Assembly: GCA_026414765.1 (NCBI GenBank)
Contig: JAOAIJ010000008.1
Coordinates: forward strand, 1 to 48,132
DNA from: Clostridia bacterium
Lineage (GTDB): Bacteria; Bacillota; Clostridia; Acetivibrionales; DSM-27016
Length of the DNA stretch: 48,132 bases
Reading direction: 5' to 3'
Positions 2,745 to 35,491 of this stretch are shown here, piece after piece. A model generated the notes under the pieces. It saw only the letters and a program-made list of their open reading frames with translations, made no database searches and had not been told where the DNA came from. How positions within the stretch are numbered: position 1 is the stretch's first letter; every line of letters starts with the position of its first letter. The position numbers were made by a program, and so were the translations under genes.

Positions 2745-2748
2745 TATT

Positions 2749-14512: not shown

Positions 14513-14519
14513 CTTTTTT

Positions 14520-14545
14520 AGCTCGCTTCATAGCGGGCTTTTTTA
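14520..14545 (+). terminator. Intrinsic terminator after DUF6385 gene 1
   Basis: AGCTCGCT pairs with AGCGGGCT (one T-G wobble) around TCAT, followed directly by a T-run. It stands 8 bases after the stop codon and is a textbook factor-independent terminator. Confidence 0.85.
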
Positions 14546-14630
14546 TATTTTTCATATCAATACTATAATAATTTGCAATTCTAAAAAATAAATATAGTAA
14601 ATGGGGCAATTTGGAGAGGACTGATGCAAC

Positions 14631-15482: not shown

Positions 15483-15493
15483 AACAATAAATG

Positions 15494-15546
15494 TTTTATG
15501 GTAACAATATTTAGTTTACAATAATAGAATATTGTATACCATAAAA
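15494..15546. repeat. Imperfect inverted repeat before DUF6385 gene 3
   Basis: TTTTATGGTA-ACAATATT (15494-15511) pairs with AATATTGTATACCATAAAA (15528-15546) with one extra base. It ends just before the GGAG ribosome site of the next gene and lacks a T-run. It could be an operator, a weak terminator of the previous gene or an mRNA structure controlling translation. Confidence 0.55.
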
Positions 15547-15561
15547 TAAGGAGTTGATATT

Positions 15562-16302
15562 ATGTCAGGTTTGTCAGTATATCAGGACACCCCAGATAAT
15601 CTAAAGGCACTACAATACGGTTATGACGGGACATCGGCAAAGGTACTAAGACTTGACACTGTTGGCCGTCAATTAGTTACAACAGATACTGGAGATGCGC
15701 TTAATGTTGAAGCAACTGATCTGGATATTAGAAATCTTTCAAACACTCAGGATAATATTCTGGTCTATGGTAATGACGGTACAGCAAATAAAGTAGTGAA
15801 AACAGATACTTCAGGACGTGTAGTTGTTACAAATGATGCAGGACAAACTGTGGAAGTAAGTGCTACGGATCTTGATATCCGTAACCTGTCAAATACTCAG
15901 GACAACATTGTGGTTTATGGAAATGACGGTTCTCAGAATAGGGTTTTGTTAACTGATTCAAGCGGATATTTACAAACCAGGACATCAAAAACCTTCACAA
16001 ACCAGACTGAAAATGTTACAACAACTGACACTTATACAGGTGCTACGGCAAGGGACATTTCACTTCAAAGCTCCCTGACTTTCTTTGTCAACAACACAGG
16101 ATCAAACCCTGCAAATGTGAAAGTTCAGATAAGTCCTGACAACACTCTATGGATAGACGATAGCAGTGAATTTACAATTGCAGCTTCTGAAGCAAAAGCA
16201 TACAGCACAAACAAATTTGCAAACCATGCACGCGTAACCCTAAAGTCTGCAAATGCCGGTTCAGCAACACAGGTTACGGTAATCTATCAGGCACAGTCAT
16301 AA
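15562..16302 (+). CDS. DUF6385-type protein 2 with duplicated internal repeat
   Basis: This 246-aa protein starts at ATG with AAGGAG 8 bases upstream. It has the same layout as the gene at 13922 but two copies of the central repeat: ATDLDIRNLSNTQDNILVYG and ATDLDIRNLSNTQDNIVVYG, about 50 residues apart, each followed by an NDG turn and a T-D-x-S-G strand. The C-terminal DUF6385 domain (TFFVNNTGSNPANVKVQISP to VIYQAQS) is close to that of protein 1. The extra repeat explains the extra 50 residues and suggests growth by internal duplication. There is no export signal. Function is unknown. Confidence 0.75.
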   Translation: MSGLSVYQDTPDNLKALQYGYDGTSAKVLRLDTVGRQLVTTDTGDALNVEATDLDIRNLSNTQDNILVYGNDGTANKVVKTDTSGRVVVTNDAGQTVEVSATDLDIRNLSNTQDNIVVYGNDGSQNRVLLTDSSGYLQTRTSKTFTNQTENVTTTDTYTGATARDISLQSSLTFFVNNTGSNPANVKVQISPDNTLWIDDSSEFTIAASEAKAYSTNKFANHARVTLKSANAGSATQVTVIYQAQS

Positions 16303-19200: not shown

Positions 19201-19236
19201 TATCCATCACTTCCTTATTTTTTCTGTTCACTGATT

Positions 19237-21111
19237 TCAACCGCAACATCCTCCGCTACCGCTACTTCCCTGTGGTGGATTATAGGTCTCTATTTCGCTT
19301 TTTATCGCCTCTATATCAATATTATCTAAATCATCAACTACTTTTACATAACCGTTTAGCATCCCCATCCAGCATTTGAAGGTGAAATCCTCTTCAGGTG
19401 TCAAAAGAGGTGTTTCAGTTTGTCCACCCTGCAAATCCAACTGACCCTTGTACTCAGGGAAAATTACAGCGTTATTGCAAGAGTTGAGCCTTTCAGGATT
19501 AAACTTAATTTTTGCCTGTACACCTTTTTTAAGAATAACTACTGCAGGAGAAAAACCTTCATCATTAACTTTGATAATAACCTCCTGCTGGTTGTTTTCT
19601 ATCTTTGCTATTTGAATATCATCTGTAGGTATATTGCCGCCATAAAACTTTGTCGCTTTTGACCCTGCTGCACAACAACCGCCTGTCGCCGCCGCTCCTG
19701 ACTGACTTTCATCCGGGTTTTGGCTGAGATCATCTTCTGATATTTTTGTTATGTCCGATACTACTTTAATATTACTGCTGATCATACCCATCCAGCATGT
19801 ATAATTTATATTACCCTCTTCATCAGGTGTAAATTCAATAATATTATCACCGGCCTCCAATCTCTTGCTAATTCCATACTTTGGAATAGTTAGAGGATTA
19901 TTGCATCCGTTCAGATCACTTTTTTCTGCTTTAATCGTCCATTTTACAGGTATCCCTTTTTGAACAATTATAGGGCTATACCTGCCTGACTCAAGCTTTG
20001 TAGTAACTACCTGTATATTATCCTGAATCTGTGAAGTATTCCCCGTACCACTTGAAGAAGCATAGGCTTTAAGATTTATACCAGACAGATTCAACCCCCT
20101 GTCAACCATTACTATACCCAGTATCAATACTAATACAGCGCTTACTTTCATCATTTTATGAGTAAATTTGCTGCTTAAGAAAGAACTTATAGCTCCAAAC
20201 CCAAACATCAAGGGTACTGTACCAAGACTGAACAGGAACATTGATGTTGCACCCGCAATAAAGCTTCCGGTTCCTAAAGCATATATCTGCATAGCTTGCA
20301 AAGGACCACAAGGCATAAGTCCATTTAGTAAGCCAATATAAAACGGGCCGTGTTTTGAGTCATTACTATAGATCTTTTGTCCGAATATTTTTGGCATCCT
20401 AGGATTTATTTTCCTCATCCAAGGAAAGATATTCATCATATTTATACCCATTATAACCATGAATAAACCGGATAAAATAGCGACTATACCTTTTGCGGCT
20501 CCTGAAAAGCTTATTGCAGAGCCAAGAGCGCCCACTATCCCACCTATCATTGTATAAGATATCACCCTGCCTGAATTATACATAAAACTCGGCTTAAGTT
20601 TTGAAAGCCTTCCCGATGCATTATTATCATATTTGTAAGATACACACTGAGACAGATTGATACCGCCGCACATGGCTATACAGTGCAAGGATGTCAGCAG
20701 TCCCACTACGAATAGTATTCCATATCCCATTGACTGATTTACCTGCGGTATAAAGTTAAAGCCAATTGTGTTTTTAATGATTACATAGAGTGCAAAAATT
20801 ATTATTCCTATACCCAATAATTGATTTATAGGCATTTTATTACTATTCTGATTTTTATCTCTTTCTGTATTAACTGCATTTTCAAAAGGTTTGTTTTTTA
20901 CCTTATAGTCGAGTTTTTCTATAGCCTCAATTATTTGATTAAGATTGACCAGATTTTGATCATATGCTATATATACATTTGAACTGCTGAAAATAGCATT
21001 AGATTCTATAATGCCATCAAGCTTTTGCAGTGTATTCTCTATCCTTATTTCACAACTTGTACAGGTCATTCCCTCTATCTGTAGAATCTTTCTTACCAGA
21101 TTCTGTTCCAT
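19237..21111 (-). CDS. HMA - TauE/SafE membrane - tandem cupredoxin-like copper protein
   Basis: I chose the ATG at 21111 (MEQNLVRK), preceded by GGAGG; the frame opens 13 codons earlier. The 624-aa protein has an HMA domain with GMTCTSC (about 13-19), then six to seven membrane helices of the sulfite exporter TauE/SafE type with the LHCIAMCGGINLSQC motif. Two extracytoplasmic cupredoxin-like repeats each carry a CNN motif (NGCNNPLTIP, NSCNNAVIFP) and a CWMGM motif. A Cys-rich linker (GGCCAAGS) and a GGCCG tail follow. The Cys/Met sets are typical copper ligands. It probably moves or stores copper at the membrane with CopA and CopZ. It is first in the operon, behind a response-regulator-like site. 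The substrate is inferred. Confidence 0.8.
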   Translation of the reverse strand: MEQNLVRKILQIEGMTCTSCEIRIENTLQKLDGIIESNAIFSSSNVYIAYDQNLVNLNQIIEAIEKLDYKVKNKPFENAVNTERDKNQNSNKMPINQLLGIGIIIFALYVIIKNTIGFNFIPQVNQSMGYGILFVVGLLTSLHCIAMCGGINLSQCVSYKYDNNASGRLSKLKPSFMYNSGRVISYTMIGGIVGALGSAISFSGAAKGIVAILSGLFMVIMGINMMNIFPWMRKINPRMPKIFGQKIYSNDSKHGPFYIGLLNGLMPCGPLQAMQIYALGTGSFIAGATSMFLFSLGTVPLMFGFGAISSFLSSKFTHKMMKVSAVLVLILGIVMVDRGLNLSGINLKAYASSSGTGNTSQIQDNIQVVTTKLESGRYSPIIVQKGIPVKWTIKAEKSDLNGCNNPLTIPKYGISKRLEAGDNIIEFTPDEEGNINYTCWMGMISSNIKVVSDITKISEDDLSQNPDESQSGAAATGGCCAAGSKATKFYGGNIPTDDIQIAKIENNQQEVIIKVNDEGFSPAVVILKKGVQAKIKFNPERLNSCNNAVIFPEYKGQLDLQGGQTETPLLTPEEDFTFKCWMGMLNGYVKVVDDLDNIDIEAIKSEIETYNPPQGSSGSGGCCG

Positions 21112-21162
21112 TGTTTTCCTCCTATCATAATATAGCTTTACGATTAACAAGTACTTTCAATT

Positions 21163-21203: not shown

Positions 21204-21273
21204 ATAAACTAAATTGGCTCAGATATACCTTGCACATTCTTTTTAGTTAATTTGACTGAGATACGGTAAAAAA

Positions 21274-21298
21274 AATAGAGCTGTTTTTAAGCTCTATT
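21274..21298 (-). terminator. Intrinsic terminator of the NRPS operon
   Basis: AATAGAGCT pairs with AGCTCTATT; on the minus strand the stem is followed directly by a T8 run. It lies about 30 bases after the NRPS stop and marks the end of the seven-gene operon. Confidence 0.85.
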
Positions 21299-21328: not shown

Positions 21329-24300
21329 TTATTTTATTGAATATTCTATTTCAGTAAATTGCGAAGCGTATACGATTTTCTCATAAGTTATGGAGAACAG
21401 ACCGCAGCTCGATACTCCCCCATACTCCGAAATTTCGTAATTACATTCCCAGCCACTAAGTTTATCCTTTCTGCTGTAAAAGTAAATTTTATTCCCATCT
21501 TTTTCAATTTTCAAATATATATCTGTTCCCGGAAAAGCCTTTTCATATAGATTGCAGCTCTCACCTTTTTCAGGACAGAACAAAGCCAGACTCCTCCCTG
21601 TATTTAGACAATACATAAACTTTGTACCATTTCCGAGAAATACTATCAACCCACTTAGATAGGGATCTCCTACCTTCCCCTCTATAGAAACTCTTGCTGA
21701 CAGTATGAAATCGTTATCTGTTGCGGGATTGATGAGCAGTTGCGGAGCATTATCCTCTATGTCCCAGGTGGCATAAGTCGTATGTTTGGAGTGTTCAAAC
21801 CTGATTTTATCTTTTTCTTTAATGATATTTGCTTTTTTATAATTCTTTTCAAAAAAAAGACTGCTTTTCCTTTCATCTTCCTCTTTATTAATCAAACTTT
21901 CAAGATCAATCATAAAAAGTACTTTTTCCAGCTCTTTAAAAAATGCTTTTTCTAAATCAATACTCTTTTCAATGCTGACTTCTAAAGTATTTAAATCAAC
22001 TGTGCTGCCTGAAGCAGCATCGTATAGTCCAAGCCGGATATCCCCCCAGCATTCAGAAGCCTTACCTGCAAAATCCTTTAAAATATCTATAGTGCTATGC
22101 TCCACACCTGCAGACTTGAGAAATCTGTAGAGCAAATCATGGTAAACAGGTTTAAAATTCAAAACTAGAAGCATGTTTTCGGACTCTTCCATTGTCAAAC
22201 GGTTACCCATCCTCTTAAATAACTCATACTCAGGGTAATTGATTATGCTGGAATTACCCCGCACAGTGCACAAATGCAGCAAGTGTTCCTTGAGCAGCTT
22301 TATTTGTGAACACGAATCGCATTTTAAATCTCTATTTTGCATAAGTGACCAAAAATGTCCTTTTTTAAAATCAGGATACATGTTTTTGAAATAAAGCATA
22401 TTCATTTCATACATCTCTCCGAAAGGTATGGTAAAATCTTTGTATATTGTACTTGAACCGCCATCTATATGTGAATTGTCAAGTATGTGGTAGATTTTCC
22501 TCTCTTCATCATACCCTTTAATAATGAAAAAATGTTTATGGCTGCTTCTTCTATACATCTTGTCATAATGAAGTGCTGACAAGTCTCCGGGGACCATGAC
22601 AGGACAATTACTGTCCAGTTGTTCCCTGATTTTGCGGTGCATATCTGCTTCATCTTCATAGTTATTGGTTTTAAAACTCAGACCTGTCTTTGGAGCCATT
22701 ATGCTTTCATGAAATTCAAAAAATTCATAGAAAATACCTGATTCCAATGCGTTGACAAACCAGCCGTCAACCATATGTGTGCAGTAATAACTTGTTAAGA
22801 ACAGGAAAACCTCAAAATACCCTGACTTATATGATTCATACATAATTGCCATAGGTCTGAAGAAGCAGTTTAATTCATGCCATGAATAGTTGTCTATGTT
22901 TTCTACAACGCTTGGAAGAATTTTATTCCTTTTATGTTCTGTTTCACGATTATTCTCATCCAATATTTCATGTACACACAGTGGAAGCTCCGCGTTATTC
23001 TCCTTGATGGATTCCGAAATCCGTGCGATAGTCTTGAATTCGTATATATCAGATACTTTCAGGGATATACCGAGCTTGTTCAATTCTGAGGAAAGCTTCA
23101 TAGCATGCAGTGAGTGTCCGCCTGCTTCAAAAAAGTTATCATGTATTCCAATCTGCCTGTCGCCTATTACCTTTTTCCAGACTTTAATCAAAAACTTTTC
23201 AAGGCCGCTTGCCGGCTCCATATGCTTATAATCATTATTATTAGCGGGTTCAGGCAATGCCCGAATATCAACTTTACCATTCTGATTAAGTGGTAATTCT
23301 TCAAGAAATATAAAATAAGATGGTACCATGTAATACGGCAGTACTGATGAAAGGTATTCCTTAAGCTCTTCAACAGATTTTTTCTTATAGCTTACTATAT
23401 ATGCACAGAGAAATTTATCCCCGTCGTTACTTTCCTTCACAGTAACGACAGCATTCTTAACAGACTCGTGAGCAGCAAGCCGGTTTTCTATTTCACCAGG
23501 CTCTATGCGGAAACCTCTTATTTTTACCTGGTTGTCGATTCTGCCTAAAAATTCTATATTCCCGTCAGGCAACCATCTGGCATAATCTCCGGTTTTGTAC
23601 ATACGCCCTGTTGTAATCAAACTTCCCGGATGTAATGAATGATTTTGGAAAATTTCCTTTGCAAAAGGATCAGGCACAAATTTTTCTGCCGTAAGTTCGG
23701 GTTTGTTCAGATACCCCCTTGCCAGTCCGTCTCCACCGACGCATAGCTCACCAGCTACACCTACAGGCATAAGATTATTATGCTTATCTACTATATATAC
23801 TGTTGAATTGCTGATAGGCCTGCCTATTGGTATGTTTTCACTATATTCCTTCTCAATATGAAAGCAGGTAGAGAATGTTGTGTTTTCAGTAGGGCCATAA
23901 CCATTTATTATATTCAACTGCCTACACTTGCTTCTGACTGCGTTAATGTGTCTGGGTGAGAGTACATCCCCTCCTACAAGGAGATTTTTCAACTCAGCAA
24001 ACATATCTTCATTTTGTTGTGCCAGCATGTTAAACAAAGGCGATGTAAGCCATAAAGTCGTTATACCGTATTTTTTTATAGCCTCTCCCAATTTCCCCGC
24101 ATCCAGCAATACATCTTCTCCGGTAAGATAAAGACAGCCTCCATTGAGAAGAGCGCCCCACACCTCAAAGGTAGAAGCATCAAAAGCAACCGCTCCTGTT
24201 TGAAGTATTCTTTCATTCTCATCGAGGTTGATGTAGTTTGTGTTTTTTACCAGCCTTATTACATTTCTGTGTTCTACCATTACACCTTTTGGCTTGCCTG

Positions 24301-26173
24301 TAGACCCTGAGGTGTACATGATATATATAAGATCTGTTGGAGAATTTATAGTTTCAGGATTTACATCATTACCTTTAGAATACCCGTACTCAATATCAAG
24401 GATATTGCCTTCAAACTCAAAGTCTTTAGACAAATCCTTCTGAACTAAAAGAATATCTGTACCGCTGTCCTTAAGTATACTGCTTATTCTACCTTCAGGA
24501 TATTTAGGTTCCAGCGGGAGATAAGCACCTCCTGCTTTTATTACGGAAAGCATAGCTATTATCATTTCTATGGAACGCTCTGCCAGCAATGCAACTATAC
24601 TATTCCGCTCCACTCCCATCTGTCTCAACAGATGTGCAAGACGGTTTGATTTTTCATTGAGTTCTCTATATGTCAACTGTTTTGTCCCGTATACCAGAGC
24701 TGTATTGTCCGGTGTTTTCTCGACTTGTTTCTCAAATAAACGGATTACAGTTTCACTTGATGGATATTCGGTTTTTGTATTATTAAACCTGAATAATATC
24801 TTATAACGTTCTTCCTGAGAAATAATACCAAGCTGACTGATTTTTTTTTCGGGATTCATAACAGCATCGTTCAAAAGATTTGAGTAATGGCTGCAAAACC
24901 TTTTGATTTCTTCATCCGAAAACATTTCTACAAGATTTTCTATCTCCATCTTGTATCTTCCGTTTCCATCCCTATTGCTTATATGTACACGGAGAGAATC
25001 AGCCTGCTGCATGTTGTATACAACTTCCGCCTCATAATCCATGTCTTTTTTATTTAGTTTCATTTGCTGATAAGACATTATTATGTTGTATATTTTTTCA
25101 GAAGTATTATGCTTCTCCCTGTAATCTTTGACTATATGGTTTAAAGCATATTTCTGATTTGTCAGTACTTGCTTCCATTTATTTTTGACTCCTCCCAGAT
25201 ATGTAAGAAAGTCTACATCTTCATCAATAAATAGTCTTACTGGAAACGTACATGCAAACATTCCGAAGATTTCTTTTTCCTTATCGGTAGCCCTATTTAA
25301 AGCTACAGAGCCAAGTACAACATCCTTTTCAGAAGTTACTTTGTTTATATAGATAGATAAGGCTGAAAAAAATACAATATAAGGGCTGAATCCGCTGTAA
25401 TTACAGAAGCTGTTTATTTTTCCTGATAATTCAGCAGGCAGCTCAAACAAATTGAGTTTTGAAGCAGTATTTATCAAACCCGGCTTTGCAGGCTTTAGCC
25501 CGCTACAAGAAGGAACTGTTTCAAACTCTTTTTGCCAGAATTCCCGATTGGTATTATACATTTCTGAACTTAAGTATTCTTCCTCACTTTTACAATAACT
25601 TTCGATGTAATCAAGATAAGAAGGTGTGTCTTCTGAAATATCCGTACCATTTTTTATGCATAAATAGTACCTGATAAGTTTATTAATAAATATATTATAT
25701 AAAGACCACCCATCCATAATAATATGATGTACCTTGATATACAGGATTAGCCTGTTTCTGCCTGTATTAATCAAAACAAATTTAAATAAATCAGAATCAA
25801 GAAGATTAAAAGGTATTCTTGTTTCAGATTCCATCCATTTTTGTATTTCATCACTACTACTGCCACTAAAATCCACTACACTTATTTCCTTAAATGTATA
25901 GGGTGAAATATATTGCTTCGGACGACCTTCGGCTTCAAACATACGCAGTCTAAGTCCGTCATTCTTTTCAAGGAAAAGATTTATTGCCTTTTCAAGCAAA
26001 TGACAGTCCATATCCTCCTTAAAGGCTACCGATGCAGAGAAATTATACAGCCCTATTCCTTGATATATTTTTTCGCTATCCCAAATCCCAATCTGTGCAT
26101 TTGTAAGATCATAATACCGGATTTTTTTTTTAGAGTTTTCATAATCCGGCACACATTCAATATTTTTATCCAT
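21329..26173 (-). CDS. One-module NRPS (C-A-PCP) with C-terminal BtrH_N-like and concanavalin-like domains
   Basis: This 1614-aa synthetase has a condensation domain (about 15-440) with intact HHIIMDGW (149-156). The adenylation domain (about 470-970) has YTSGSTGKPKG (near 617) and YGPTENTTF (near 756). Its read-off specificity code is D-A-F-W-L-G-G-T-F, which I recall as valine-type. The carrier domain has GGHSLHA (Ser near 1019). There is no thioesterase or reductase. From about 1090 a papain/C39-like region resembles BtrH_N: Cys in ELNCFF (about 1101), His in HKHFFIIKGYD (about 1213) and ILDN (about 1231). The last 150 residues look like a DUF1349/concanavalin lectin fold. GAGGTG precedes the ATG. 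BtrH is an acyltransferase in butirosin synthesis, so this domain may release the aminoacyl chain onto a sugar. Last gene of the operon. Confidence 0.85.
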   Translation of the reverse strand: MDKNIECVPDYENSKKKIRYYDLTNAQIGIWDSEKIYQGIGLYNFSASVAFKEDMDCHLLEKAINLFLEKNDGLRLRMFEAEGRPKQYISPYTFKEISVVDFSGSSSDEIQKWMESETRIPFNLLDSDLFKFVLINTGRNRLILYIKVHHIIMDGWSLYNIFINKLIRYYLCIKNGTDISEDTPSYLDYIESYCKSEEEYLSSEMYNTNREFWQKEFETVPSCSGLKPAKPGLINTASKLNLFELPAELSGKINSFCNYSGFSPYIVFFSALSIYINKVTSEKDVVLGSVALNRATDKEKEIFGMFACTFPVRLFIDEDVDFLTYLGGVKNKWKQVLTNQKYALNHIVKDYREKHNTSEKIYNIIMSYQQMKLNKKDMDYEAEVVYNMQQADSLRVHISNRDGNGRYKMEIENLVEMFSDEEIKRFCSHYSNLLNDAVMNPEKKISQLGIISQEERYKILFRFNNTKTEYPSSETVIRLFEKQVEKTPDNTALVYGTKQLTYRELNEKSNRLAHLLRQMGVERNSIVALLAERSIEMIIAMLSVIKAGGAYLPLEPKYPEGRISSILKDSGTDILLVQKDLSKDFEFEGNILDIEYGYSKGNDVNPETINSPTDLIYIMYTSGSTGKPKGVMVEHRNVIRLVKNTNYINLDENERILQTGAVAFDASTFEVWGALLNGGCLYLTGEDVLLDAGKLGEAIKKYGITTLWLTSPLFNMLAQQNEDMFAELKNLLVGGDVLSPRHINAVRSKCRQLNIINGYGPTENTTFSTCFHIEKEYSENIPIGRPISNSTVYIVDKHNNLMPVGVAGELCVGGDGLARGYLNKPELTAEKFVPDPFAKEIFQNHSLHPGSLITTGRMYKTGDYARWLPDGNIEFLGRIDNQVKIRGFRIEPGEIENRLAAHESVKNAVVTVKESNDGDKFLCAYIVSYKKKSVEELKEYLSSVLPYYMVPSYFIFLEELPLNQNGKVDIRALPEPANNNDYKHMEPASGLEKFLIKVWKKVIGDRQIGIHDNFFEAGGHSLHAMKLSSELNKLGISLKVSDIYEFKTIARISESIKENNAELPLCVHEILDENNRETEHKRNKILPSVVENIDNYSWHELNCFFRPMAIMYESYKSGYFEVFLFLTSYYCTHMVDGWFVNALESGIFYEFFEFHESIMAPKTGLSFKTNNYEDEADMHRKIREQLDSNCPVMVPGDLSALHYDKMYRRSSHKHFFIIKGYDEERKIYHILDNSHIDGGSSTIYKDFTIPFGEMYEMNMLYFKNMYPDFKKGHFWSLMQNRDLKCDSCSQIKLLKEHLLHLCTVRGNSSIINYPEYELFKRMGNRLTMEESENMLLVLNFKPVYHDLLYRFLKSAGVEHSTIDILKDFAGKASECWGDIRLGLYDAASGSTVDLNTLEVSIEKSIDLEKAFFKELEKVLFMIDLESLINKEEDERKSSLFFEKNYKKANIIKEKDKIRFEHSKHTTYATWDIEDNAPQLLINPATDNDFILSARVSIEGKVGDPYLSGLIVFLGNGTKFMYCLNTGRSLALFCPEKGESCNLYEKAFPGTDIYLKIEKDGNKIYFYSRKDKLSGWECNYEISEYGGVSSCGLFSITYEKIVYASQFTEIEYSIK

Positions 26174-26222
26174 TTAAATACACCTCATATTTATTTACTG
26201 GTTAGTCCAAATTTTAGTACTT

Positions 26223-28250
26223 TTATTCAAAGCACCCTATAATAACTTCACCGGGTTTTAAGAAATAATCCATTCCCAACTCCCATCTGATATTACAGAT
26301 ATCGCCGGAAGAAAAAAAGAGTGTTGCTGATTTAAAGTCTTGAAAAAGCTTTTCAGGGATTAAATCTTCAGGTTTTATTCTCCTTCTGTATGAAAAGCTT
26401 CTATTAGCAATAAGAAACATATTTTTACCGCTTTCCATATCGCAGTAGCAAATACAGGTAGTCTTACTCTTTTTCCGTAACCCGTGATGCCATAAGAAAT
26501 TCTCTTTTTTCGTGACTACTGCTTTAAAAAATGATCTCAATGCATAAGCTTTTGATAATATCTGTTCTGCCCAAAGACGGTCATCGCTCAACCAGTGCAG
26601 GCAGTATTCATCAAAAAAAGCCAACCTTCCATACATTGGATCTCCAGGAGCAAGTACAAATCTTCCTTCTTCCGTATTATCAAGACCTAGATTCATGGGT
26701 TGTATTTCCATAACTTCAAATCCACTGTTTATAAACGGTATTGCATTTGGTAAAAAAATATTTATTAGAATTATCTGCTCAAGCTTTTTTTTGTCTTTGT
26801 GCAGAAAAACAGCCCTTGGTGTGTCTGGAGTCTCAATCGCCGCTGCAACCGGTATTTGTGATTTTTTTAATGTATCAAGGAAAAGTTGCTTGTTAAAACT
26901 GGTTTCTTCAAGATACTTGTAAAAATACCATACATAACCGCTGATGAAGTCAAAATTATCTTTCTTTGCCATACCGGAGTTCAGAACACTGAATTCTTCT
27001 GACCACAATATAAACTCCGGATTTTTTTCCCTTGCCTTTTTTATTATCTCTCTGTTTAGTTCCAAGGGAAGTACATGTCCCATATCTATTCTGGCGCCAT
27101 CTATTCCGAAGTTATCCTGAAAATAAGGAATGGCACCTGAAACATATTCCCACAAATCCAGATTTACGTCACTTCCGGGATAGAGATTCAGACAAACCCC
27201 ATCTTGCATGATATACGGAACATCTGATTGACCTGCAAACATCCGTCCCTTTTCACTTAAATCATAATAAAACCTGAGGAATGTAATGTCTGTCCATGGC
27301 GGCTGAGGATCATTTAGTACACCGGGAAAGGCCGGAACAGTAGTCAGACCGAATTCCCTTTCTATTAATTCAAGTATATTGCCCCCGTCACTTTCGTTTT
27401 GTATCTTAACCTTTTCCCATTTTTCCGGGCATACCTTATCTGGCGACAGGGAAAACATCGAAATATAGCTTTTCAGGTTGGTAGATTCGTACAAGTTCTT
27501 AAGTGTACTGTCACTTAAGCCTGTACATAATTCAACATTTTCTACCGAAGGAGTTTTGAAGCTGTTACTGCATTCTAAATCAATCCAGTAAAACCAGTCA
27601 GGATGCTCTATGATTAGATCGCTGTCTCTTGCTGCGGTTCTGAATACAAAATCAGCCAGCACCCTTATACCTAGAATATGACAGGCTTCAACAAAAGCTT
27701 TGAATTCTATTTCTAGAATAGCCTGGTTAGCTTCTCCAAGTAATTCATCATGAAGATTTCTGTCTATTCTGTATACGTTTTTTATTGCATAAGGACTACC
27801 CAATCCTCCCTTTTTATACCTGCTGCTGTATTCGAATATCGGAAGCAGATATATAACATCGATACCGAGTTTTTTTAGATAAGGCAGCAGACATATTGCC
27901 TTTAAAAAGGTACCTCCGCATATACGTCCGTCATTATAGTGACTCCATGCAGTATACATTCTTGGCAGCATGCTGTATATATTGCTATTGCAAATATTTT
28001 TTCTATTGTTTTTATGATTCTTAAGAGGCATCAAATAATTCCGGGATTTATCGCCGCTACCGGCAATATATTTCTCTAAGCAAAATTCCATAAACTCATA
28101 TGGGTTTATGTTTATTTCTCCACTTCTGCCTTTATCCCGTGTATATTTTTCATATCTGCAGAAATTCCACACTTCAGGAATATAATAGTTTCCTGAGAAT
28201 CCATTTTTCCTGCTTTTTATCTTTTCAAGCACTATTAACAGATTTTCCAT
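26223..28250 (-). CDS. GH13 alpha-amylase-superfamily protein B (GlgE-like style)
   Basis: This 675-aa protein has GGGAGG before its ATG and no signal peptide, so it is cytoplasmic. The (beta/alpha)8 barrel shows region I-like DFVFRTAARDSDL with HPDWFYWI, the nucleophile in GIDGARIDMGH (about 386), the acid/base Glu in FILWSEEF (about 418) and AAIETPDTPRA (about 475), which replaces the usual DNHD. The HPDW segment and TPD-type region IV recall GH13_3 maltosyltransferases such as GlgE, but similarity is distant. It is a paralogue of the protein at 33101. It sits between the glycosyltransferase and NRPS genes. It may transfer or trim glucosyl units of the product, or may be non-catalytic. Specificity is unknown. 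Confidence 0.75.
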   Translation of the reverse strand: MENLLIVLEKIKSRKNGFSGNYYIPEVWNFCRYEKYTRDKGRSGEININPYEFMEFCLEKYIAGSGDKSRNYLMPLKNHKNNRKNICNSNIYSMLPRMYTAWSHYNDGRICGGTFLKAICLLPYLKKLGIDVIYLLPIFEYSSRYKKGGLGSPYAIKNVYRIDRNLHDELLGEANQAILEIEFKAFVEACHILGIRVLADFVFRTAARDSDLIIEHPDWFYWIDLECSNSFKTPSVENVELCTGLSDSTLKNLYESTNLKSYISMFSLSPDKVCPEKWEKVKIQNESDGGNILELIEREFGLTTVPAFPGVLNDPQPPWTDITFLRFYYDLSEKGRMFAGQSDVPYIMQDGVCLNLYPGSDVNLDLWEYVSGAIPYFQDNFGIDGARIDMGHVLPLELNREIIKKAREKNPEFILWSEEFSVLNSGMAKKDNFDFISGYVWYFYKYLEETSFNKQLFLDTLKKSQIPVAAAIETPDTPRAVFLHKDKKKLEQIILINIFLPNAIPFINSGFEVMEIQPMNLGLDNTEEGRFVLAPGDPMYGRLAFFDEYCLHWLSDDRLWAEQILSKAYALRSFFKAVVTKKENFLWHHGLRKKSKTTCICYCDMESGKNMFLIANRSFSYRRRIKPEDLIPEKLFQDFKSATLFFSSGDICNIRWELGMDYFLKPGEVIIGCFE

Positions 28251-28281
28251 ACCAGCCTCCCTGTCATACTATATAATCCGA

Positions 28282-29745
28282 TCAACCGGATATATACTGC
28301 GTACCATCAATTATGCATTTATACAGCTTTATATACTCACTTGATGATTTGTCCCATCCTAAAGGCTGAGTCATGCATCTATGCACCAATTCCATCCATA
28401 TATCCTTTTTATGATAGTAACTGATAGCATTACGTACAGCATCAAGCATAACCCATTGATTTGCATACCAGAAAGAAAATCCGTTTCCTTCACCGGTTTT
28501 TTCATTGTAGCACTTAACAGTATCTTTTAGTCCTCCCGTCTCTCTTACTAGAGGGACTGCACCATATCTCATCCCTATCAGCTGGCTTATTCCGCATGCC
28601 TCAGTATAGGAAGGCATAAGAAAAATATCGGAAGCCGCATAAGTCTTGTATGCAATGCTTTCATTATAAGGTAAGTAGCGCATCTTATCCGGATAAGCCT
28701 TCATCATTTCTGAAAAAAGGTATCTATAGTAAGGAATACCGTCCCCCACCACTATAAACTGCAAATCATCCTTTAGCATTTCATGGAAGGATTTTTCTAT
28801 AAGATATAGCCCCTTGGTTATTTCAAGTCTAGAAATAATGGCAACTATCGGAACATCATTTCGTACAGGTAGGTCAAGTTCACGCTGTAGCATTTCCTTA
28901 TTTATTGCTTTTCCTTCCAAACTTTCATAGGTGAAATTAGCATACAGCCTCTTATCGGTTCCAGGATTATTTTCATCTGCATCTATGCCGTTTAGAATTC
29001 CATATAAATCCTTTTTCCGCTTGTTTAATACCGGTACTATAGGTTCTACATCAAACGGCAGACCTGTACTGATTTGATCTGCATAGCTTGGACTAACGGT
29101 ATTTATTACATCTGCAAGCATTATCCCTATCTTCATAAAGTTTATCTGATTATAGAAATCAAGGCTATTTTCAGTAAAATAACTCCAATCTGTCTTTAAC
29201 ACATCCCATGCATTCTGTTTGCTAAATACACCCTGATATAAAACCGTATGTATTGTAAGCAATGTCTTTATATCTTTGTAATAATCGATAGAGCCATAAT
29301 GAGTTCTCATATAGTAAGGAATAAAACCTGTCTCCCAATCATTGCACTGAATGATCTGAGGCTTGAACCCCAAGAGAGGAATGGCTTCCAGAACTGCTTT
29401 GCAATAGAATACAAACCTTTCCATTTCATCATCGTAGTCATATATTCTTTCCCTGTCAAAATAATAAGGGTTATCGATAAAATATACTATATTACCGTTA
29501 TACTCCGTAAATTCAACTTTACACCGGAATTTTTTGTCTGAAATTTCCACATCCAGCTCACATACCGGCTGAAGCAGGTTTGAGTATTGCTCTCTAATGT
29601 TTTTGTATTTTGGCATTATGATACGTATATCATATCCCTTATTTCTTATTGCTTTAGGAAGAAAGCATGCAACATCCGCAAGCCCTCCTGTTTTGGCGAA
29701 AGGGTATACTTCTACAGCTGCAAAAAGTATTTTTATATTATCCAT
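28282..29745 (-). CDS. Diverged glycogen-synthase-like glycosyltransferase (GT5)
   Basis: This 487-aa protein has the length and two-Rossmann architecture of GlgA. KTGGLADV (ADP-glucose site) is at about 18-25, TIHTVLYQG replaces the usual TIHN-x-x-QG, and LNGIDADENNPGTDKRL, SRLEITKGLYLI and the C-terminal PSYTEACGISQLIGMRYG follow, with the catalytic-site Glu kept but FEPCG changed to TEACG. RETGGLKDTV ends the core. AGAGGT precedes the ATG. No glgB, glgC, glgD or glgP is nearby. It lies between a MATE exporter and a GH13/NRPS pair in one operon, so I infer it builds an oligosaccharide part of a metabolite rather than storage glycogen. It could still accept ADP- or UDP-glucose. Confidence 0.8.
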   Translation of the reverse strand: MDNIKILFAAVEVYPFAKTGGLADVACFLPKAIRNKGYDIRIIMPKYKNIREQYSNLLQPVCELDVEISDKKFRCKVEFTEYNGNIVYFIDNPYYFDRERIYDYDDEMERFVFYCKAVLEAIPLLGFKPQIIQCNDWETGFIPYYMRTHYGSIDYYKDIKTLLTIHTVLYQGVFSKQNAWDVLKTDWSYFTENSLDFYNQINFMKIGIMLADVINTVSPSYADQISTGLPFDVEPIVPVLNKRKKDLYGILNGIDADENNPGTDKRLYANFTYESLEGKAINKEMLQRELDLPVRNDVPIVAIISRLEITKGLYLIEKSFHEMLKDDLQFIVVGDGIPYYRYLFSEMMKAYPDKMRYLPYNESIAYKTYAASDIFLMPSYTEACGISQLIGMRYGAVPLVRETGGLKDTVKCYNEKTGEGNGFSFWYANQWVMLDAVRNAISYYHKKDIWMELVHRCMTQPLGWDKSSSEYIKLYKCIIDGTQYISG

Positions 29746-29769
29746 ACATCCGACCTCTTTTCTTTGAGT

Positions 29770-31161
29770 TTATAGATTACTGACAAGGTTTTTTATCCAT
29801 TTACGTGAGTAAACTCTGCGTAAACCGATTACAAACCGTATAATTTCTTCGCATGAGAGAATGATATATACCCAGTATACAGGCAAACCCAGTGCAAATG
29901 CTGCAATAAAGCCTGACGGGACACCAAACAGCCATGTTGTAGAGGATTCCATTACAAGTATGAATTTACTGTCTCCTCCGCTTGATAAAATTCCTGAGCC
30001 TATTATCATATTTGAAACTTTGACCCATAGGAAAAATGCAAATGCCAGCATAAGATACCCTGCGTACCTTCCAGTCTCTTCGGAAACATTATAAATCCCT
30101 ATATAGAACTTTGACATAAGTATAATTAATACACCGAGACAGGCAGAAAAAACAATACTGAGTTTTACAAATTTCTTTGCATATGAGAGTACATTATCTT
30201 CCTTATTTGCTCCTATTGCATTTCCAAGGATAACAGCAGTAGCACTTGCCAATCCTGACAAAGCACCTATGGTAATTCCTTGTATTGGAGCAGTTATTGC
30301 TACAGCAGTATATTCCAAAGTTCCTATTCTGCCATAAATGATGCTGTATACCGTTTCTCCGAGCACCCATAGAAATTCATTAAGAATAAACGGGTATGTT
30401 ATATTAAAGTAGCTGACTAAAAGTGGTTTTGATACCCCTCTCATCTGCTTAAAAGAAAACGCTGCCGGAAGCTTTAATTTATATGTAACTGCGAGAATAA
30501 TCAGAAGCTCGACAATTCGTGCTATTACAGTTGATACTGCTGCTCCCTCCAAGCCCATTTCAGGGAATCCAAATCTTCCGAATATAAGTACATAATTAAG
30601 AATAACGTCCAGCACAACCCCTGTAATACTAGCAATAACGGGAAGCTTCACGTGTGTAGTAGATCTGAGAACTGCCGAGAACATAACCGTTAGCATAGAA
30701 GGAATATAACTGTATCCTACTATTTTGAGAAAAACTGCCCCCTGGGACATTACTTCCTTGTCATTTGAAAAGATCCCAATACAAAATTCAGGAGCAAATA
30801 CAGACAGGCAAACAAATATTGCTGTAACTATACCACCTGAAAATAAACCTATTCCCATCAGTTGTCCAATTTTTCCAGTTTCCTTCTTCCCCCAGAACTG
30901 TGCGGTATAGACGGATACTCCTGCTGCTATTGCATTTAGTACAAACATCAAAATAGTTATCATCCTGTTGCTCATTCCTACTGCAGCAATAGATTTCTCG
31001 CCAAGCTGCCCTACCATTACCTGGTCCGCCATATTCAGCAGACTCATAATAACACTTTGAAGCGCTATGGGGATAGCTATCTTTGAAACTTTAGATATGA
31101 ATTCTCTATTTGAATCCAATGAATTCTTAATATTCGACATAATATTTGATAAAAACAACAT
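29770..31161 (-). CDS. MATE-family efflux transporter
   Basis: This 463-aa membrane protein starts at an ATG with GGAGG. Twelve hydrophobic helices in two similar halves and the early motif IPIALQSVIMSLLNMADQVM with VGQLGEKSIAAVG are typical of NorM/DinF-type MATE exporters; the second half begins near ISYPFIL-like NITYPFILNEFLWVLGE. It exchanges Na+ or H+ for small cationic or neutral compounds. It is inside the biosynthetic operon, 24 bases from the GT5 gene and 47 from the reductase gene, so it is the probable exporter of, and immunity determinant against, the product. Confidence 0.9.
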   Translation of the reverse strand: MLFLSNIMSNIKNSLDSNREFISKVSKIAIPIALQSVIMSLLNMADQVMVGQLGEKSIAAVGMSNRMITILMFVLNAIAAGVSVYTAQFWGKKETGKIGQLMGIGLFSGGIVTAIFVCLSVFAPEFCIGIFSNDKEVMSQGAVFLKIVGYSYIPSMLTVMFSAVLRSTTHVKLPVIASITGVVLDVILNYVLIFGRFGFPEMGLEGAAVSTVIARIVELLIILAVTYKLKLPAAFSFKQMRGVSKPLLVSYFNITYPFILNEFLWVLGETVYSIIYGRIGTLEYTAVAITAPIQGITIGALSGLASATAVILGNAIGANKEDNVLSYAKKFVKLSIVFSACLGVLIILMSKFYIGIYNVSEETGRYAGYLMLAFAFFLWVKVSNMIIGSGILSSGGDSKFILVMESSTTWLFGVPSGFIAAFALGLPVYWVYIILSCEEIIRFVIGLRRVYSRKWIKNLVSNL

Positions 31162-31208
31162 TAATTATTCCTCCGGTATAAATTGTGATAATATGATGCT
31201 TCATCTGG

Positions 31209-31865
31209 CTAGACTTTTGAATATCTCATCAAAGCATAATTCTGCCTTGGGTGTATTTCCTGAAGTTCGAATTTTCTGGTTCCCTGAAGTTCTGTATAAC
31301 CTTCGCCGTCAACAAGTGTAATATTTGAAGCTCCTCCTATTATTAACGGCAGCTGCATCAGAATTATTTCATCGACCAGCCCGTCCTTTATCAGATTCCA
31401 ATTTAGCTGTCCGCCGCCTTCTACCATGATACTTTCTACTGAATACCTGTTTTCCAGCTGCTTGAACAACTCTTTGAAATCCACGGTATCTTTCCCGCAA
31501 ATAATGCAATCCTTTTCCATTTTCCTTATAGCATCCATTTTTTCATTATTTGCACAATTTTCTGTAGTGACTATAATAGTCTTTTTTTCATCATTGAAAA
31601 TATTTGAATCAATAGGTATATTCAAGGTAGTAGTAGGAATAATCCTTATAGGATTCTTATCCTCTTCAAAACGGTTTGTTAGAAACGGATTATCGATTTC
31701 AATTGTTTTTCTTCCTACCATAATTCCATCCATGCTTCCTCTGAACTTGTGAATATACTCCATATCCTCAACAGAGAAAAGGCTAAAAAGATCCTTGCTT
31801 GAGTGACCGGCCCCTAAAGTAAGCTTACCGTCTATAGAAATCTGACTGAAAATTACTGTCTTCAT
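31209..31865 (-). CDS. RibD C-terminal/DHFR-like reductase
   Basis: This 218-aa protein matches the reductase half of RibD: MKTVIFSQISIDGKLTLGAG at the N-terminus, GIMVGRKTIEIDNPFLTNR, an NADPH-binding ESIMVEGGGQLNWNLIKDGL and DEIILMQLPLIIGG. The deaminase domain is absent and no other riboflavin gene is nearby. AAAGGAG precedes the ATG. Stand-alone copies of this fold reduce Schiff bases or pteridine-like rings in secondary metabolism as well as in folate or riboflavin routes. In this operon it may reduce an imine or keto intermediate, or introduce an amino-sugar or reduced end. The substrate is not visible from sequence. Confidence 0.8.
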   Translation of the reverse strand: MKTVIFSQISIDGKLTLGAGHSSKDLFSLFSVEDMEYIHKFRGSMDGIMVGRKTIEIDNPFLTNRFEEDKNPIRIIPTTTLNIPIDSNIFNDEKKTIIVTTENCANNEKMDAIRKMEKDCIICGKDTVDFKELFKQLENRYSVESIMVEGGGQLNWNLIKDGLVDEIILMQLPLIIGGASNITLVDGEGYTELQGTRKFELQEIHPRQNYALMRYSKV

Positions 31866-31937
31866 AATTTATTCTCCTTTCTTAAAATAAAGCGTTGTGA
31901 TGATTGACTTCCAAAATATATTTTAGTACCGGATTAT

Positions 31938-33080
31938 TCAGCCGGCATTTAGTAATTGAACCTTTTCCTTCATTTTTTCTATCGTTTCATCAATACCTAG
32001 GCATCTCTGCCAGAAAAGCTCCTTGCCGAGTTCCATAACAGGCCAAAGATTTTTACTTGTTTCAGTTATAAGAAGAGGATGACTGGCATACATTTCTTCC
32101 AGTACAATCCTTTTATTCTGGGATGCACTATTTTTTATTTTCTGGCTGATATTCACATTCAGAGGAATCCTGTCAACTTCATTTAGCCACATCATCTGGC
32201 ACTCCTCACTCAAAAGGAATTTTCCGAAGCCTAAAAGTTCATCTCTGTACTCCGATTGAAGAGATTGTTCCACATAAACCAACCCCAGAGTAGATGTGGT
32301 TGAAGTACATTTCCTGCCGTTTATAGCCGGTATTGCACAAACACCTGCTTTTTCTCCCAGATTTCTCATAATATAGCCGTATGACCACTCACCTGCAATA
32401 ATTGCTCCTATTTTACCGTCAAAGAATTTCTCCAACATTTCTGTTGATGCGTCAAAGGTTCCAACTATGCCTTGTTTCATCATAGTATCAATAAATCGGA
32501 AAGCATCCTTCAAAGCTAAATAGTTGATATTTCCCGGATCACACCCCTTAACCGGCCAGGCGTCAAATGCAGATAAGATTGGCAATATCCAATAAAGCTG
32601 GCATATATCAAGTGAAACGGGAATTATTTTTTTCTTTTGCAATTCATCAACTTTTTGTTTAAGTTCTTTCCACTCAAGTAAGCCTGAAGGAAATATATCT
32701 TTGTTATAATATAAAACAAGATGATTCCCTCCTATCACAGGAAGACCATACTGTTTACCGCTAAAATTCATTGTTTTTAATGAGTTTTCAGAAATCAAGT
32801 CTTTAAAAATATTATCCGGTATTTCAGAAAATCTGCCTGTATTTGCGAAAATAACAAAATCAGATGGAAGAAACGCCATATCCGGAGCTTCATTGCCCCT
32901 TTTATCACCTCTGAAATACGCAGTGATTTCATATATGTTTTTAGCGACAGGATTGATTTTTATATAGTTTCTTTCTGAATACATTTTACAGATTTTTTCC
33001 AGAACATTTATTGAAATGTCCCCCGGACCGTCAAATTCATGCCATAGAACCAGTTCGTTTACCTTTTTATTTGTTTGCAT
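31938..33080 (-). CDS. Solute-binding-protein fold without export signal
   Basis: This 380-aa protein has the type I/maltose-binding-like solute-binding fold: ELVLWHEFDGPGDISINVLEK, PDMAFLPSDFVIFANTGRF, YGLPVIGGNHLVLYYNKDIF, AIIAGEWSYGYIMRNLGEKAG and a C-terminal helix pair. Family members normally start with a lipoprotein or Sec signal. This one starts MQTNKKVNELVLWHEFD, directly at the first strand, with GGAGG upstream and no earlier start, so it should stay in the cytoplasm. The window's real importer protein (43938) has a normal lipobox. Between two oligosaccharide-related genes, I infer a soluble carrier or sensor holding the growing sugar chain. No permeases accompany it here. Confidence 0.78.
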   Translation of the reverse strand: MQTNKKVNELVLWHEFDGPGDISINVLEKICKMYSERNYIKINPVAKNIYEITAYFRGDKRGNEAPDMAFLPSDFVIFANTGRFSEIPDNIFKDLISENSLKTMNFSGKQYGLPVIGGNHLVLYYNKDIFPSGLLEWKELKQKVDELQKKKIIPVSLDICQLYWILPILSAFDAWPVKGCDPGNINYLALKDAFRFIDTMMKQGIVGTFDASTEMLEKFFDGKIGAIIAGEWSYGYIMRNLGEKAGVCAIPAINGRKCTSTTSTLGLVYVEQSLQSEYRDELLGFGKFLLSEECQMMWLNEVDRIPLNVNISQKIKNSASQNKRIVLEEMYASHPLLITETSKNLWPVMELGKELFWQRCLGIDETIEKMKEKVQLLNAG

Positions 33081-33100
33081 AATACCTCCAATTAATTGTA

Positions 33101-35035
33101 TTAACTAAAATTTTTAAGAACGAGTGCCTGTCCGGCTTTCATAACCGTACTTCTTATTATTGCAGCAGTATCACCTGCAGTATGAGTATCAGCCAGAACC
33201 TCATAAAAGCAGTATTCAGGCATTAAATTCCCCAAATCAATTAATCTGTCATTTTCCATATCCAGGTTAAGACAGCAAAGGATAGTATTTCTACCTTGCT
33301 TATAGCCGTAGATAAGTATATCTTCAGGTGAATCAGGAATGATAAGGTTTTCTGGCTTTATATATTCCTTGTATTCCTTCCTCAAAGCACTTAAGCGCTT
33401 AAGCAAGAAAACCATAATTTCTGCATTTTCTTTATTCCACTCAATAACCATTTTGTTAAAAAATGCTTTTGGTATTTCTGCGCCGTTTGTATTATCTGCA
33501 AGCCCGCAATTTAAAGGCTGGATTTCATTTACTTCGAAGCCTGTAGTAATATAAGGGACACCTTTTGGCATAAAATAGTTAAACATAGCCATATTTTTTG
33601 CCAAAAGCACGCCTCCCTCCCTGCTGGTAATACGAGGTGTATCTGCAGTTTCTGCACAAGCAAAAATATGGATTTGAAGTGATGGCAGGCTTTTAAGGTA
33701 TTGTGTCAGATTTTCCTTGTTTATCCTGGACATAAGATTCCAGTTATTCCCCAGCATTATATTGTATCCGCTTTTTGATGCCTTAATATGATTTTCATTT
33801 ATCAGATCTTCGCTTATCAGTACTGCATCCGGCTTTATTTCCCTTATCACTTCAAATAGATGGCTTAAAAGTGGAGTTGGAACAGTATGTCCTATATCCA
33901 CCCTGAATCCGTCGAGACCGTATACCTCCATACCATGACGTATTGCCTGCTCCATCATATTCCACAATCCGTAATTCGGCTGTTCTGCTGGAAACATATT
34001 GCACTTAATGGTGTCAAACATGACATAAGGAGGTTGATCCGGCTGTATATATTTTTTCACACTTGGAGTTACATCCATATAAAGTCTTAGAAACGTAATA
34101 TCCGTCCATATAGGCTGTACATCGTTTATCCAATCCGAATGTGCCGGAGCAGTAGTGATTTTCATTTCTCTTTCAACAAGTTCCAGTAATTCTTCTCCGG
34201 TATTGTCACTTCGCTCTTTTAGTTCATTCCATAGTACAGGATTTATAATATCAGGCGAATGAGTGAATTTTTTTAGATGTAAAGGTGTCTCGGCGGAAGT
34301 ATAAACAATGTCCAGATTCTCAGGAGTACACTCCTGGAAAAAGTCCAGACCGGGAATTTTTGGCGGACAAAAACCCTTGAGTGCGTCTAGTTTTATCCAA
34401 TAGACCCAGTCGGGATGTTCACTGATCAAATCGCTGTTTACAGCAGTTACGCGAGGAATGAAGTCATGTACTACTTTTATCCCAGACAGATGGCATGCTT
34501 CCACCAGAGAGATGAATTCCTGGTCAAGTGAAAAATCTTCCATACCGTCCAATAATGGATCGTGCAGATTGGGGTCCAGTTCAAAAAAGCTTTTTATTGC
34601 ATATGGTGAGCCAATATCTCCTTTTTGCTTTAATGTACTGTATTTTGTTACAGGCAGCAAATAGAGAATATTCACACCAAGCTCTTTCAAAAAAGGCAGC
34701 AGGGCAATTAAGCGCAGAAAAGTACCTGATTCGATCTCATTATCATGGTTGTAATCCCACGCTGTTGTATATCTGACTAATGAATTATAAATTACGCTAT
34801 CATCCATAGTTGTGTTTTTTGTTTTTTGGCTATTTTCTGAATTATTAAGAATATTCCTGATAGTTGATGAGATATACTCATATGGATTTACAAGTATTTC
34901 TCCAGCATTTTTACCTTTAATGTTTTCAAAATGTATACTGTTCCATATGGATGGTATCCAGAACAGTAAATCCGAATTTTTTTCCCGTTTGTCAAGAAAG
35001 TTATATATTTGCTCCAGATTATTTGAATTTTTCAT
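33101..35035 (-). CDS. GH13 alpha-amylase-superfamily protein A, first gene of the operon
   Basis: I chose the ATG at 35035 (MKNSNNLEQI) after GGGGG; the frame opens 15 codons earlier. The 644-aa protein lacks a signal peptide. It is a paralogue of the protein at 26223: early FWIPSIWNSIHFENIKGKNA, HDFIPRVTAVNSDL with HPDWVYWI, GLDGFRVDIGH (nucleophile about 377), AVLISEDL (about 408) and CAETADTPRI (about 465). Both proteins share VPYITTGFEVNEIQPLNCGL-type segments. All three acidic positions seem kept. The gene opens the operon, 20 bases before the binding-protein gene. It may act on alpha-glucan taken up by the nearby importer or on the metabolite itself. Confidence 0.75.
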   Translation of the reverse strand: MKNSNNLEQIYNFLDKREKNSDLLFWIPSIWNSIHFENIKGKNAGEILVNPYEYISSTIRNILNNSENSQKTKNTTMDDSVIYNSLVRYTTAWDYNHDNEIESGTFLRLIALLPFLKELGVNILYLLPVTKYSTLKQKGDIGSPYAIKSFFELDPNLHDPLLDGMEDFSLDQEFISLVEACHLSGIKVVHDFIPRVTAVNSDLISEHPDWVYWIKLDALKGFCPPKIPGLDFFQECTPENLDIVYTSAETPLHLKKFTHSPDIINPVLWNELKERSDNTGEELLELVEREMKITTAPAHSDWINDVQPIWTDITFLRLYMDVTPSVKKYIQPDQPPYVMFDTIKCNMFPAEQPNYGLWNMMEQAIRHGMEVYGLDGFRVDIGHTVPTPLLSHLFEVIREIKPDAVLISEDLINENHIKASKSGYNIMLGNNWNLMSRINKENLTQYLKSLPSLQIHIFACAETADTPRITSREGGVLLAKNMAMFNYFMPKGVPYITTGFEVNEIQPLNCGLADNTNGAEIPKAFFNKMVIEWNKENAEIMVFLLKRLSALRKEYKEYIKPENLIIPDSPEDILIYGYKQGRNTILCCLNLDMENDRLIDLGNLMPEYCFYEVLADTHTAGDTAAIIRSTVMKAGQALVLKNFS

Positions 35036-35095
35036 AAATTTGTACCCCCTGTTTTTATTGGACCTGCAAATAGTATGCAAAAAATAGCGTAATTT

Positions 35096-35452: not shown

Positions 35453-35491
35453 CCTATAGTCTTATCTGGAAAACCCGGATAAGACTATAGG
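35453..35491 (-). terminator. Intrinsic terminator of the CGTase gene
   Basis: CCTATAGTCTTATCTGG pairs with CCGGATAAGACTATAGG with a single T-G wobble around AAAAC, a 17-bp stem. It lies 100 bases beyond the CGTase stop. The T-run is weak (TATATTTTTAG), so termination is likely but not certain. Confidence 0.7.

Follow-up and report, generated by a model that had tools for sequence, protein, structure and literature searches.

What product is served by an operon that sets maltosyltransferase-like enzymes beside a RibD-type reductase, an exporter and a non-ribosomal peptide synthetase (NRPS)? The question is raised by seven genes, all on the minus strand, in a Clostridia bacterium whose contig C8 (JAOAIJ010000008.1; 48132 bases), part of a 4.56 Mb draft genome, was analyzed whole and is called the window below. 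On balance, we favor the view that this operon makes and exports a maltosylated amino-pentitol or iminosugar, which in this bacterium would be N-aminoacylated. The genes, in the order GH13a-SBP-RibD-MATE-GT5-GH13b-NRPS, and the features beside them are as follows.

33101-35035, minus strand: GH13a, a maltosyltransferase-like GH13 protein (1gju match; catalytic triad); cassette core
31938-33080, minus strand: solute-binding protein (SBP), similar to maltose-binding protein (MBP) and without a signal (PF13416, 62.3 bits); cassette core
31209-31865, minus strand: stand-alone RibD_C reductase (PF01872, 152 bits), GsnB-like role proposed; cassette core
29770-31161, minus strand: MATE exporter (PF01554, 150 bits; in 55 of 61 loci); cassette core
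28282-29745, minus strand: GT5 glycogen-synthase-like protein of a side clade (TIGR02095); accessory
26223-28250, minus strand: GH13b, a second maltosyltransferase-like protein (homology, catalytic residues); accessory
21329-26173, minus strand: one-module NRPS with condensation (C), adenylation (A, Val-like), peptidyl carrier protein (PCP), BtrH-like and jelly-roll domains (Pfam, motifs, Foldseek); accessory
35594-37735, minus strand: GH13 amylase with TIG and CBM20 domains (Pfam); neighbor, possibly linked
about 21270-21297, minus strand: candidate intrinsic terminator 3' of the NRPS gene (hairpin and T run, by eye)

An original prediction, made from the DNA letters alone, had described seven genes on one strand with gaps of 20-72 bp, and the open reading frame (ORF) coordinates bear this out (49, 31, 24, 47, 72 and 20 bp from the end of the NRPS gene to GH13a); the protein families it named agree with Pfam. 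GH13a starts at the ATG at 35035, and the ORF list also holds a longer TTG start at 35080. The predicted operon boundaries fared less well. Although a sigma-70-like match (10 of 12 positions) lies at 35302-35274, promoter-like matches across the region are near chance (67, against 56.6 ± 7.8 in shuffles), and the candidate promoter was not upheld; the terminator was recognizable by eye, but is absent from the output of a mechanical terminator scan. The stretch that separates GH13a from the upstream amylase gene holds a hairpin of 17 pairs (35453-35491).

The contigs of 84,980 species were scanned with two short peptide patterns taken from the GH13a proteins of this genome, an approach that undercounts. 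At least 29 loci were returned, of which 28 held a conserved cassette and one, L098 (a 29% match, GH13b-like), did not and was removed before counting. With an SBP profile, matches were found in 48 of the 394 genomes searched from the family to which P. wynnii belongs. The full set of 69 loci reduced to 61 distinct ones when those sharing an identical 120-mer were merged, the window and a second cluster of the same genome (C22) included. Genes were counted by tblastn with chosen identity floors, ORF calling having missed genes in GC-rich Cohnella loci; contig ends truncate several loci, among them L075, L082, L173 and L190, and the alcohol dehydrogenase (ADH) matches of L180 fall in two pieces. 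SBP was found in 60 loci and GH13a in 59, two counts that are not independent since one or other gene was used to pick the loci. RibD (58), ADH (58) and MATE (55) were not used in picking.

The cassette, carried by Paenibacillaceae, Clostridium and Lachnospiraceae, is headed in 58 of the 61 loci by the ADH, a medium-chain dehydrogenase/reductase (MDR). The genes most often run ADH-GH13a-SBP-RibD-MATE (34 loci); in eight loci they run ADH-SBP-RibD-MATE-NRPS-GH13a. Accessory genes are rarer: HAD phosphatase 10, NRPS 9, N-acetyltransferase (NAT) 5, GT5 4, MFS 4, amylase homologue 4, PurF 3 and GH13b 1. The conserved core is MDR oxidase, maltosyltransferase, cytosolic SBP, RibD and MATE, and it points to a reduced phosphoribosylamine or iminosugar core in the product, which was no part of the original prediction.

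The nearest published parallel is the gsn pathway for galactosyrin (glycosyrin) in Pseudomonas syringae, as given in the available passages of PMC11844564. There, PurF, the RibD homologue GsnB, the phosphatase GsnC and the PF00107 oxidase GsnA are required, and sufficient in vitro, to make the compound from phosphoribosyl pyrophosphate (PRPP), the PF00107 enzyme being the last oxidase before ring closure. The cassette shares with it a RibD-type reductase, a PF00107-family oxidase, a phosphatase and, as we propose, a phosphoribosylamine precursor from the purine pathway; the same passages name no maltosyltransferase, SBP, MATE or NRPS. They list Paenibacillus among bacteria with iminosugar clusters without giving detail in the text (PMC11844564), and those clusters may overlap with the present cassette. 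The claim that the operon fits no known cluster class is softened by this route. Among the papers listed by literature searches, whose coverage leaves most subscription papers outside, none describes the cassette in its title or the opening of its abstract. A RibD search of plasmids (E up to 1e-20) yielded 10 records (seven riboflavin-type, one deaminase, two not annotated), none with a gsn-like cluster by annotation.

A second parallel is offered by the three-gene azasugar clusters (aminotransferase-phosphatase-dehydrogenase) for DNJ and DAB-1, as described in the part of PMC8382821 at hand. Shared is the phosphatase-plus-dehydrogenase logic by which an oxo-aminopolyol able to cyclise is made (PMC8382821); RibD here takes the place of the aminotransferase. 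The aminotransferase consensus published there, sought in six frames with a strict and a loose motif that are blind to other aminotransferases, was found in none of the 69 loci.

The reactions, the product and its use, which we infer from gene content, conservation, synteny, domains and active-site residues, would run as follows. PurF would turn PRPP into 5-phosphoribosylamine (PRA), and the RibD-type reductase would reduce the open-chain imine of PRA to 1-amino-1-deoxyribitol 5-phosphate. After removal of the phosphate by a HAD phosphatase, the MDR (zinc-ADH family) oxidase would introduce a carbonyl, with which the amine would close a ring to give an iminosugar. In the present bacterium these two steps might be performed by the C22 enzymes, or the oxidation might be skipped and the aminoribitol used as such. 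Maltosyl or glucosyl units would be added by the GH13 maltosyltransferases, here also by GT5, and the cytosolic MBP-like SBP may bind the donor maltodextrin or the pseudo-oligosaccharide as it grows. The NRPS would then load valine, and its BtrH-like domain would acylate the amine with the (N-acyl-)aminoacyl group; in the Lachnospiraceae loci an AAC(3)-like N-acetyltransferase would act in place of the NRPS. Finally, the cationic product would leave through MATE, and might be used to inhibit starch- or glycogen-acting enzymes. We propose that NRPS aminoacylation is a lineage-specific extension of a cassette that joins a RibD iminosugar route to alpha-glucan transfer.

The early steps are best seen in Clostridium, where PurF lies inside the operon in three loci (L070, L073 and L203). 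In L073 and L203, PurF, RibD, HAD and ADH share a single operon; L070 is the same up to PurF and is without MATE. The chain PurF-RibD-phosphatase-MDR oxidase was first read from L070 and L073, before the comparison with PMC11844564. Obtained after PurF had been seen in those two, L203 served as a test, and it holds the whole set in one run. The fourth match of the search in this genus, L094/L204, has HAD, and its stretch ends at 7.7 kb, without PurF. Each of the two Clostridium genomes tested (those of L070 and L073) has two full PurF proteins over the cut-off; the genome of the window has one, outside the window.

In the same genome as the window, C22 (L053, 1258-13287) begins with the run ADH-GH13a-SBP-RibD-HAD. 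Beyond it lie genes for two GT5 proteins, both without the KTGGL motif, and for a GHMP kinase, a nucleotidyltransferase-HAD fusion and an SIS isomerase, which resemble those for GDP-heptose (GmhA-, HddA- and HddC/GmhB-like) with scores below the equivalog cut-offs. The C22 product is possibly a heptosylated relative of the same compound.

GH13a is related to the maltosyltransferase of Thermotoga maritima (1gju; E 1.6e-121), a kinship that had gone unnoticed at first, as had the BtrH_N and jelly-roll domains of the NRPS. Both GH13a and GH13b share the catalytic Asp/Glu/Asp of that enzyme (1gju/1gjw), D380, E409 and D465 being present in all 58 GH13a and all 9 GH13b-type rows; maltosyl transfer by either protein is a prediction. 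The Pfam amylase model matches both weakly, and 24 alignment positions set GH13a rows apart from GH13b-type rows. GH13a is about 62-63% identical to its C22 paralogue; among 100 relatives, GH13a-type identities over 60% occur in this genome only (100% and 63%), and lower full-length matches, e.g., 33-38%, are closer to GH13b than to GH13a.

As predicted, the SBP is without a signal. A hydrophobic N-terminus is seen in none of 27 homologues (three of which, L080, L083 and L089, have over-extended ORF starts), their maximum 12-mer hydropathy within the first 40 residues being at most 0.95, compared with 2.68 for a secreted SBP at 43938. Across 10 aligned rows D74, N119 and W232 do not vary, and Y163 hardly does. 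We take D74, Y163 and W232 to align with Asp65, Tyr155 and Trp230 of MBP, and Asn119 with its Glu111, which is suggestive only of an MBP-like pocket. The closest solved structure to RibD is 2azn, an archaeal-type reductase (E 8.6e-37). Stand-alone copies are found in C8 and C22, and a further RibD_C match of this genome, a 378-residue frame at C43, was taken as the fused riboflavin RibD. Separate long RibD frames (369-435 residues) are present in 13 of 14 cassette genomes, G442 having a single RibD match, and on the ground of these frames a riboflavin role for the cassette protein was rejected. MATE carriers, for their part, commonly export cations.

Two unlike N-acylation genes both fit a product that bears an amine. 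The first is the NRPS, with C, A, PCP and then BtrH_N (44.5 bits; cut-off 29.7) in the Pfam order. HHxxxDG and the PCP serine are present in the window protein, and the C and PCP motifs are kept in 9 of 9 NRPSs. Its A-domain code, DAFWLGGTF, is presumably Val-like, in keeping with the substrate originally predicted; the eight other NRPSs have DI(T/L)(Q/W)(L/M)GMVW, which we take to be Gly-like. The C-terminus (about residues 1070-1614) comprises the BtrH_N match and a predicted jelly roll. In the BtrH-like region Cys1103 and His1214 (Cys34 and His145 of the modelled fragment) are invariant in 8 of 8 homologues and are probably catalytic. Because of low pLDDT in the first 216 residues of the fragment, only its strand-rich end (fragment residues 372-544) was used. 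This end looks in the model like a jelly roll, and we take the best Foldseek matches of the fragment (3o12, 3mep, GH43 proteins and CBM66) to refer to it. The receptor-binding domains of neurotoxins also matched, in which we read no more than a widespread lectin-like fold.

In butirosin biosynthesis, BtrH acylates an amine with a group supplied by a carrier protein. The likeness consists in the BtrH_N match and the invariant Cys and His; unlike BtrH, the domain here shares one protein with a C-A-PCP module, and the predicted jelly roll comes after it. A literature search on NRPS-BtrH fusions returned nothing relevant among the papers listed. BtrH_N was verified by Pfam in the two NRPSs tested (window and L086), and the end of the L087 NRPS matches only in part. 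The eight other NRPS loci, all Paenibacillaceae or of that family, also carry GH13a, so that the link between GH13a and NRPS is not confined to this strain. The second N-acylation gene, an Antibiotic_NAT protein, is found in four Lachnospiraceae loci and one Clostridium sp. (L094); its Pfam check covered L091 and L094. As an observation apart, stand-alone BtrH-like/jelly-roll proteins of about 510-570 residues occur in other loci of this genome and in G033:

L055 9973-11595, L057 9541-11241, L058 9599-11137, L066 9367-11064, L067 7172-8887: stand-alone BtrH-like/jelly-roll proteins

Several observations weigh against a decorated iminosugar. The likeness to GsnA and GsnB is one of family description, taken from the passages available, and neither ADH nor HAD phosphatase was found in the window operon (Pfam; tblastn of the loci). 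Being without oxidase and phosphatase, this operon is by the rules of membership not itself a gsn-type cluster; we suggest that it acts together with such a cluster, or in the manner of one. The sole close ADH of the genome is that of C22 (other matches are 34% or less), and since C22 has its own RibD, SBP and GH13a, the two clusters may be independent. Counts of HAD and PurF are low across the 61 loci, and the distribution is patchy: the SBP profile matched 4 of 68 genomes in the genus Clostridium, to which C. weizhouense belongs. Among 391 Clostridia genomes it matched 2, this one and another whose match has the contig number, coordinates and E-value of that in C. weizhouense. The one other genome of the same family has no GH13a-type match. 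The gene order of the window was seen once, and its exact seven-gene set in no other locus. Its NRPS groups with those of Paenibacillaceae weakly (82/84; seven of the eight are in the tree) and differs from them in A-domain code; the NRPS C-terminal fragment was modelled with low confidence (mean pLDDT 56.2, with values mostly under 50 over the first 216 residues). The NAT of L091 scores below the NCBIfam AAC(3) cut-off (215.5 against 270), and GH13a could act on plain maltodextrin.

An alternative is that no ring is closed and that the maltosyl and aminoacyl groups are set on an acyclic aminoribitol or some other reduced N-glycoside, the ADH of other loci tailoring something else. The window operon does have RibD and is without ADH or HAD, and the genome's single close ADH lies elsewhere. 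Of the 61 loci, only the window combines GH13a, SBP and RibD in the absence of ADH; ADH is missing also from L190, which is cut by its contig end, and from L168, an SBP-GT5 pair. With ADH as the first gene in 58 loci, and a PF00107 enzyme acting as the final oxidase before ring closure in galactosyrin (available passages of PMC11844564), we consider this alternative unlikely, if worth keeping in view.

As originally inferred, the product might instead be an alpha-glucan oligosaccharide of glycogen type that GT5 and the GH13 enzymes assemble and the NRPS aminoacylates; RibD would then catalyze a side reaction, and there would be no iminosugar. The operon holds the necessary GT5, two GH13 proteins and NRPS, without ADH or phosphatase. 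GT5 scores 488.4-488.7 bits against TIGR02095 (cut-off 328.45) and 544.8 against the best GlgA equivalog model, under its cut-off of 603. Its relatives include a 63% homologue directly beside SBP in L168 and a 61% homologue near the cassette in L171; all three proteins have other residues in place of the N in HN..YQG and the P in EPCG, and in this they differ from the GlgA homologues at C9 and C21. L168 (8573-11237) holds the adjacent SBP and GT5 with the rest of the cassette absent, this being the second SBP copy of that genome, and suggests that the two proteins work as a pair. Against this, RibD and ADH are each present in 58 of the 61 loci and GT5 in 4, and a plain glucan would offer no amine for transfer of the BtrH or NAT type. 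We regard this alternative as quite unlikely. Nor did glycogen-type chain building prove to be the heart of the system, as had been thought: GH13b is found in the window only, and a search for the conserved set of GT5, two GH13 proteins, SBP and NRPS returned no other locus. A glycogen operon was likewise rejected, GT5 and GH13b lying outside the conserved core and the C9 and C21 homologues scoring higher on TIGR02095 (588.3 and 570.8).

It is very unlikely that this is an operon for starch use or glycogen in which RibD, MATE and NRPS are unrelated passengers. An amylase gene does lie upstream, with an ABC/two-component sugar locus further along the window, and relatives of GH13b, itself a 32% homologue of GH13a, are found in maltodextrin-use operons: those of 45-53% identity adjoin genes for ABC sugar transporters and amylase-like or phosphorylase-like proteins (L054, L059-L065). 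In L095, L175 and L188, proteins that match the amylase at 56-57% lie close to the cassette, those of L175 and L188 being cut by the end of the retrieved stretch and the comparison having no chance control; the amylase hints at a link to starch. However, RibD and MATE are kept beside GH13a and SBP in both Clostridia and Paenibacillaceae, the SBP is without a signal, and Pfam found no permease among the seven genes. An aminoglycoside-like antibiotic pathway, brought to mind by BtrH_N in the NRPS, the MDR dehydrogenase and the AAC(3)-like Antibiotic_NAT proteins of five loci, is scarcely credible given that Pfam assigned none of the seven window genes to an aminocyclitol synthase or an aminotransferase and that the azasugar aminotransferase motif, blind as it is to others, occurs in 0 of 69 loci.

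A biosynthesis and export operon, in which alpha-glucan-type transfer stands beside a one-module NRPS, thus remains plausible as originally predicted, and a maltosylated amino-pentitol or iminosugar is the product we favor. Only tentatively do we extend this to a new class, present in Firmicutes including gut Lachnospiraceae, of maltosyl-iminosugars, some of them N-aminoacylated by a fused NRPS-acyltransferase, with a maltose-binding protein that would have shifted to the cytoplasm to act as soluble carrier or holder of the pseudo-oligosaccharide as it is extended. Acarbose-type pseudo-oligosaccharides embody a similar idea, a nitrogen-containing warhead joined to maltose. Amylase genes lie nearby here; in contrast to the acarbose type, Pfam found no cyclitol synthase among the seven genes, and the proposed route to the warhead differs.

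Elsewhere in the window, a Gabija-type defence pair lies at 1152-4629 on the minus strand (PADLOC models; GajB 3.2e-174, GajA 4.9e-261). Three consecutive plus-strand genes (13889-16302) encode the uncharacterised C-terminal DUF6385, one of them with a CBM96 match, and at 16705-21150 on the minus strand a copper-type P-ATPase adjoins an HMA/DsbD-like membrane/cupredoxin-like fusion. Near the contig ends are an HTH_21 fragment (126-509) and a transposase gene (46451-48001).

If the proposal is correct, the purine-branch iminosugar route of Pseudomonas syringae would also be present in soil Paenibacillaceae and animal-gut Lachnospiraceae, joined there to alpha-glucan transfer, and a cytosolic solute-binding protein would act as a biosynthetic part. 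Gut and soil bacteria would then be expected to yield acarbose-like compounds that inhibit starch enzymes, and the order ADH-GH13-SBP-RibD-MATE would be a simple genome signature.

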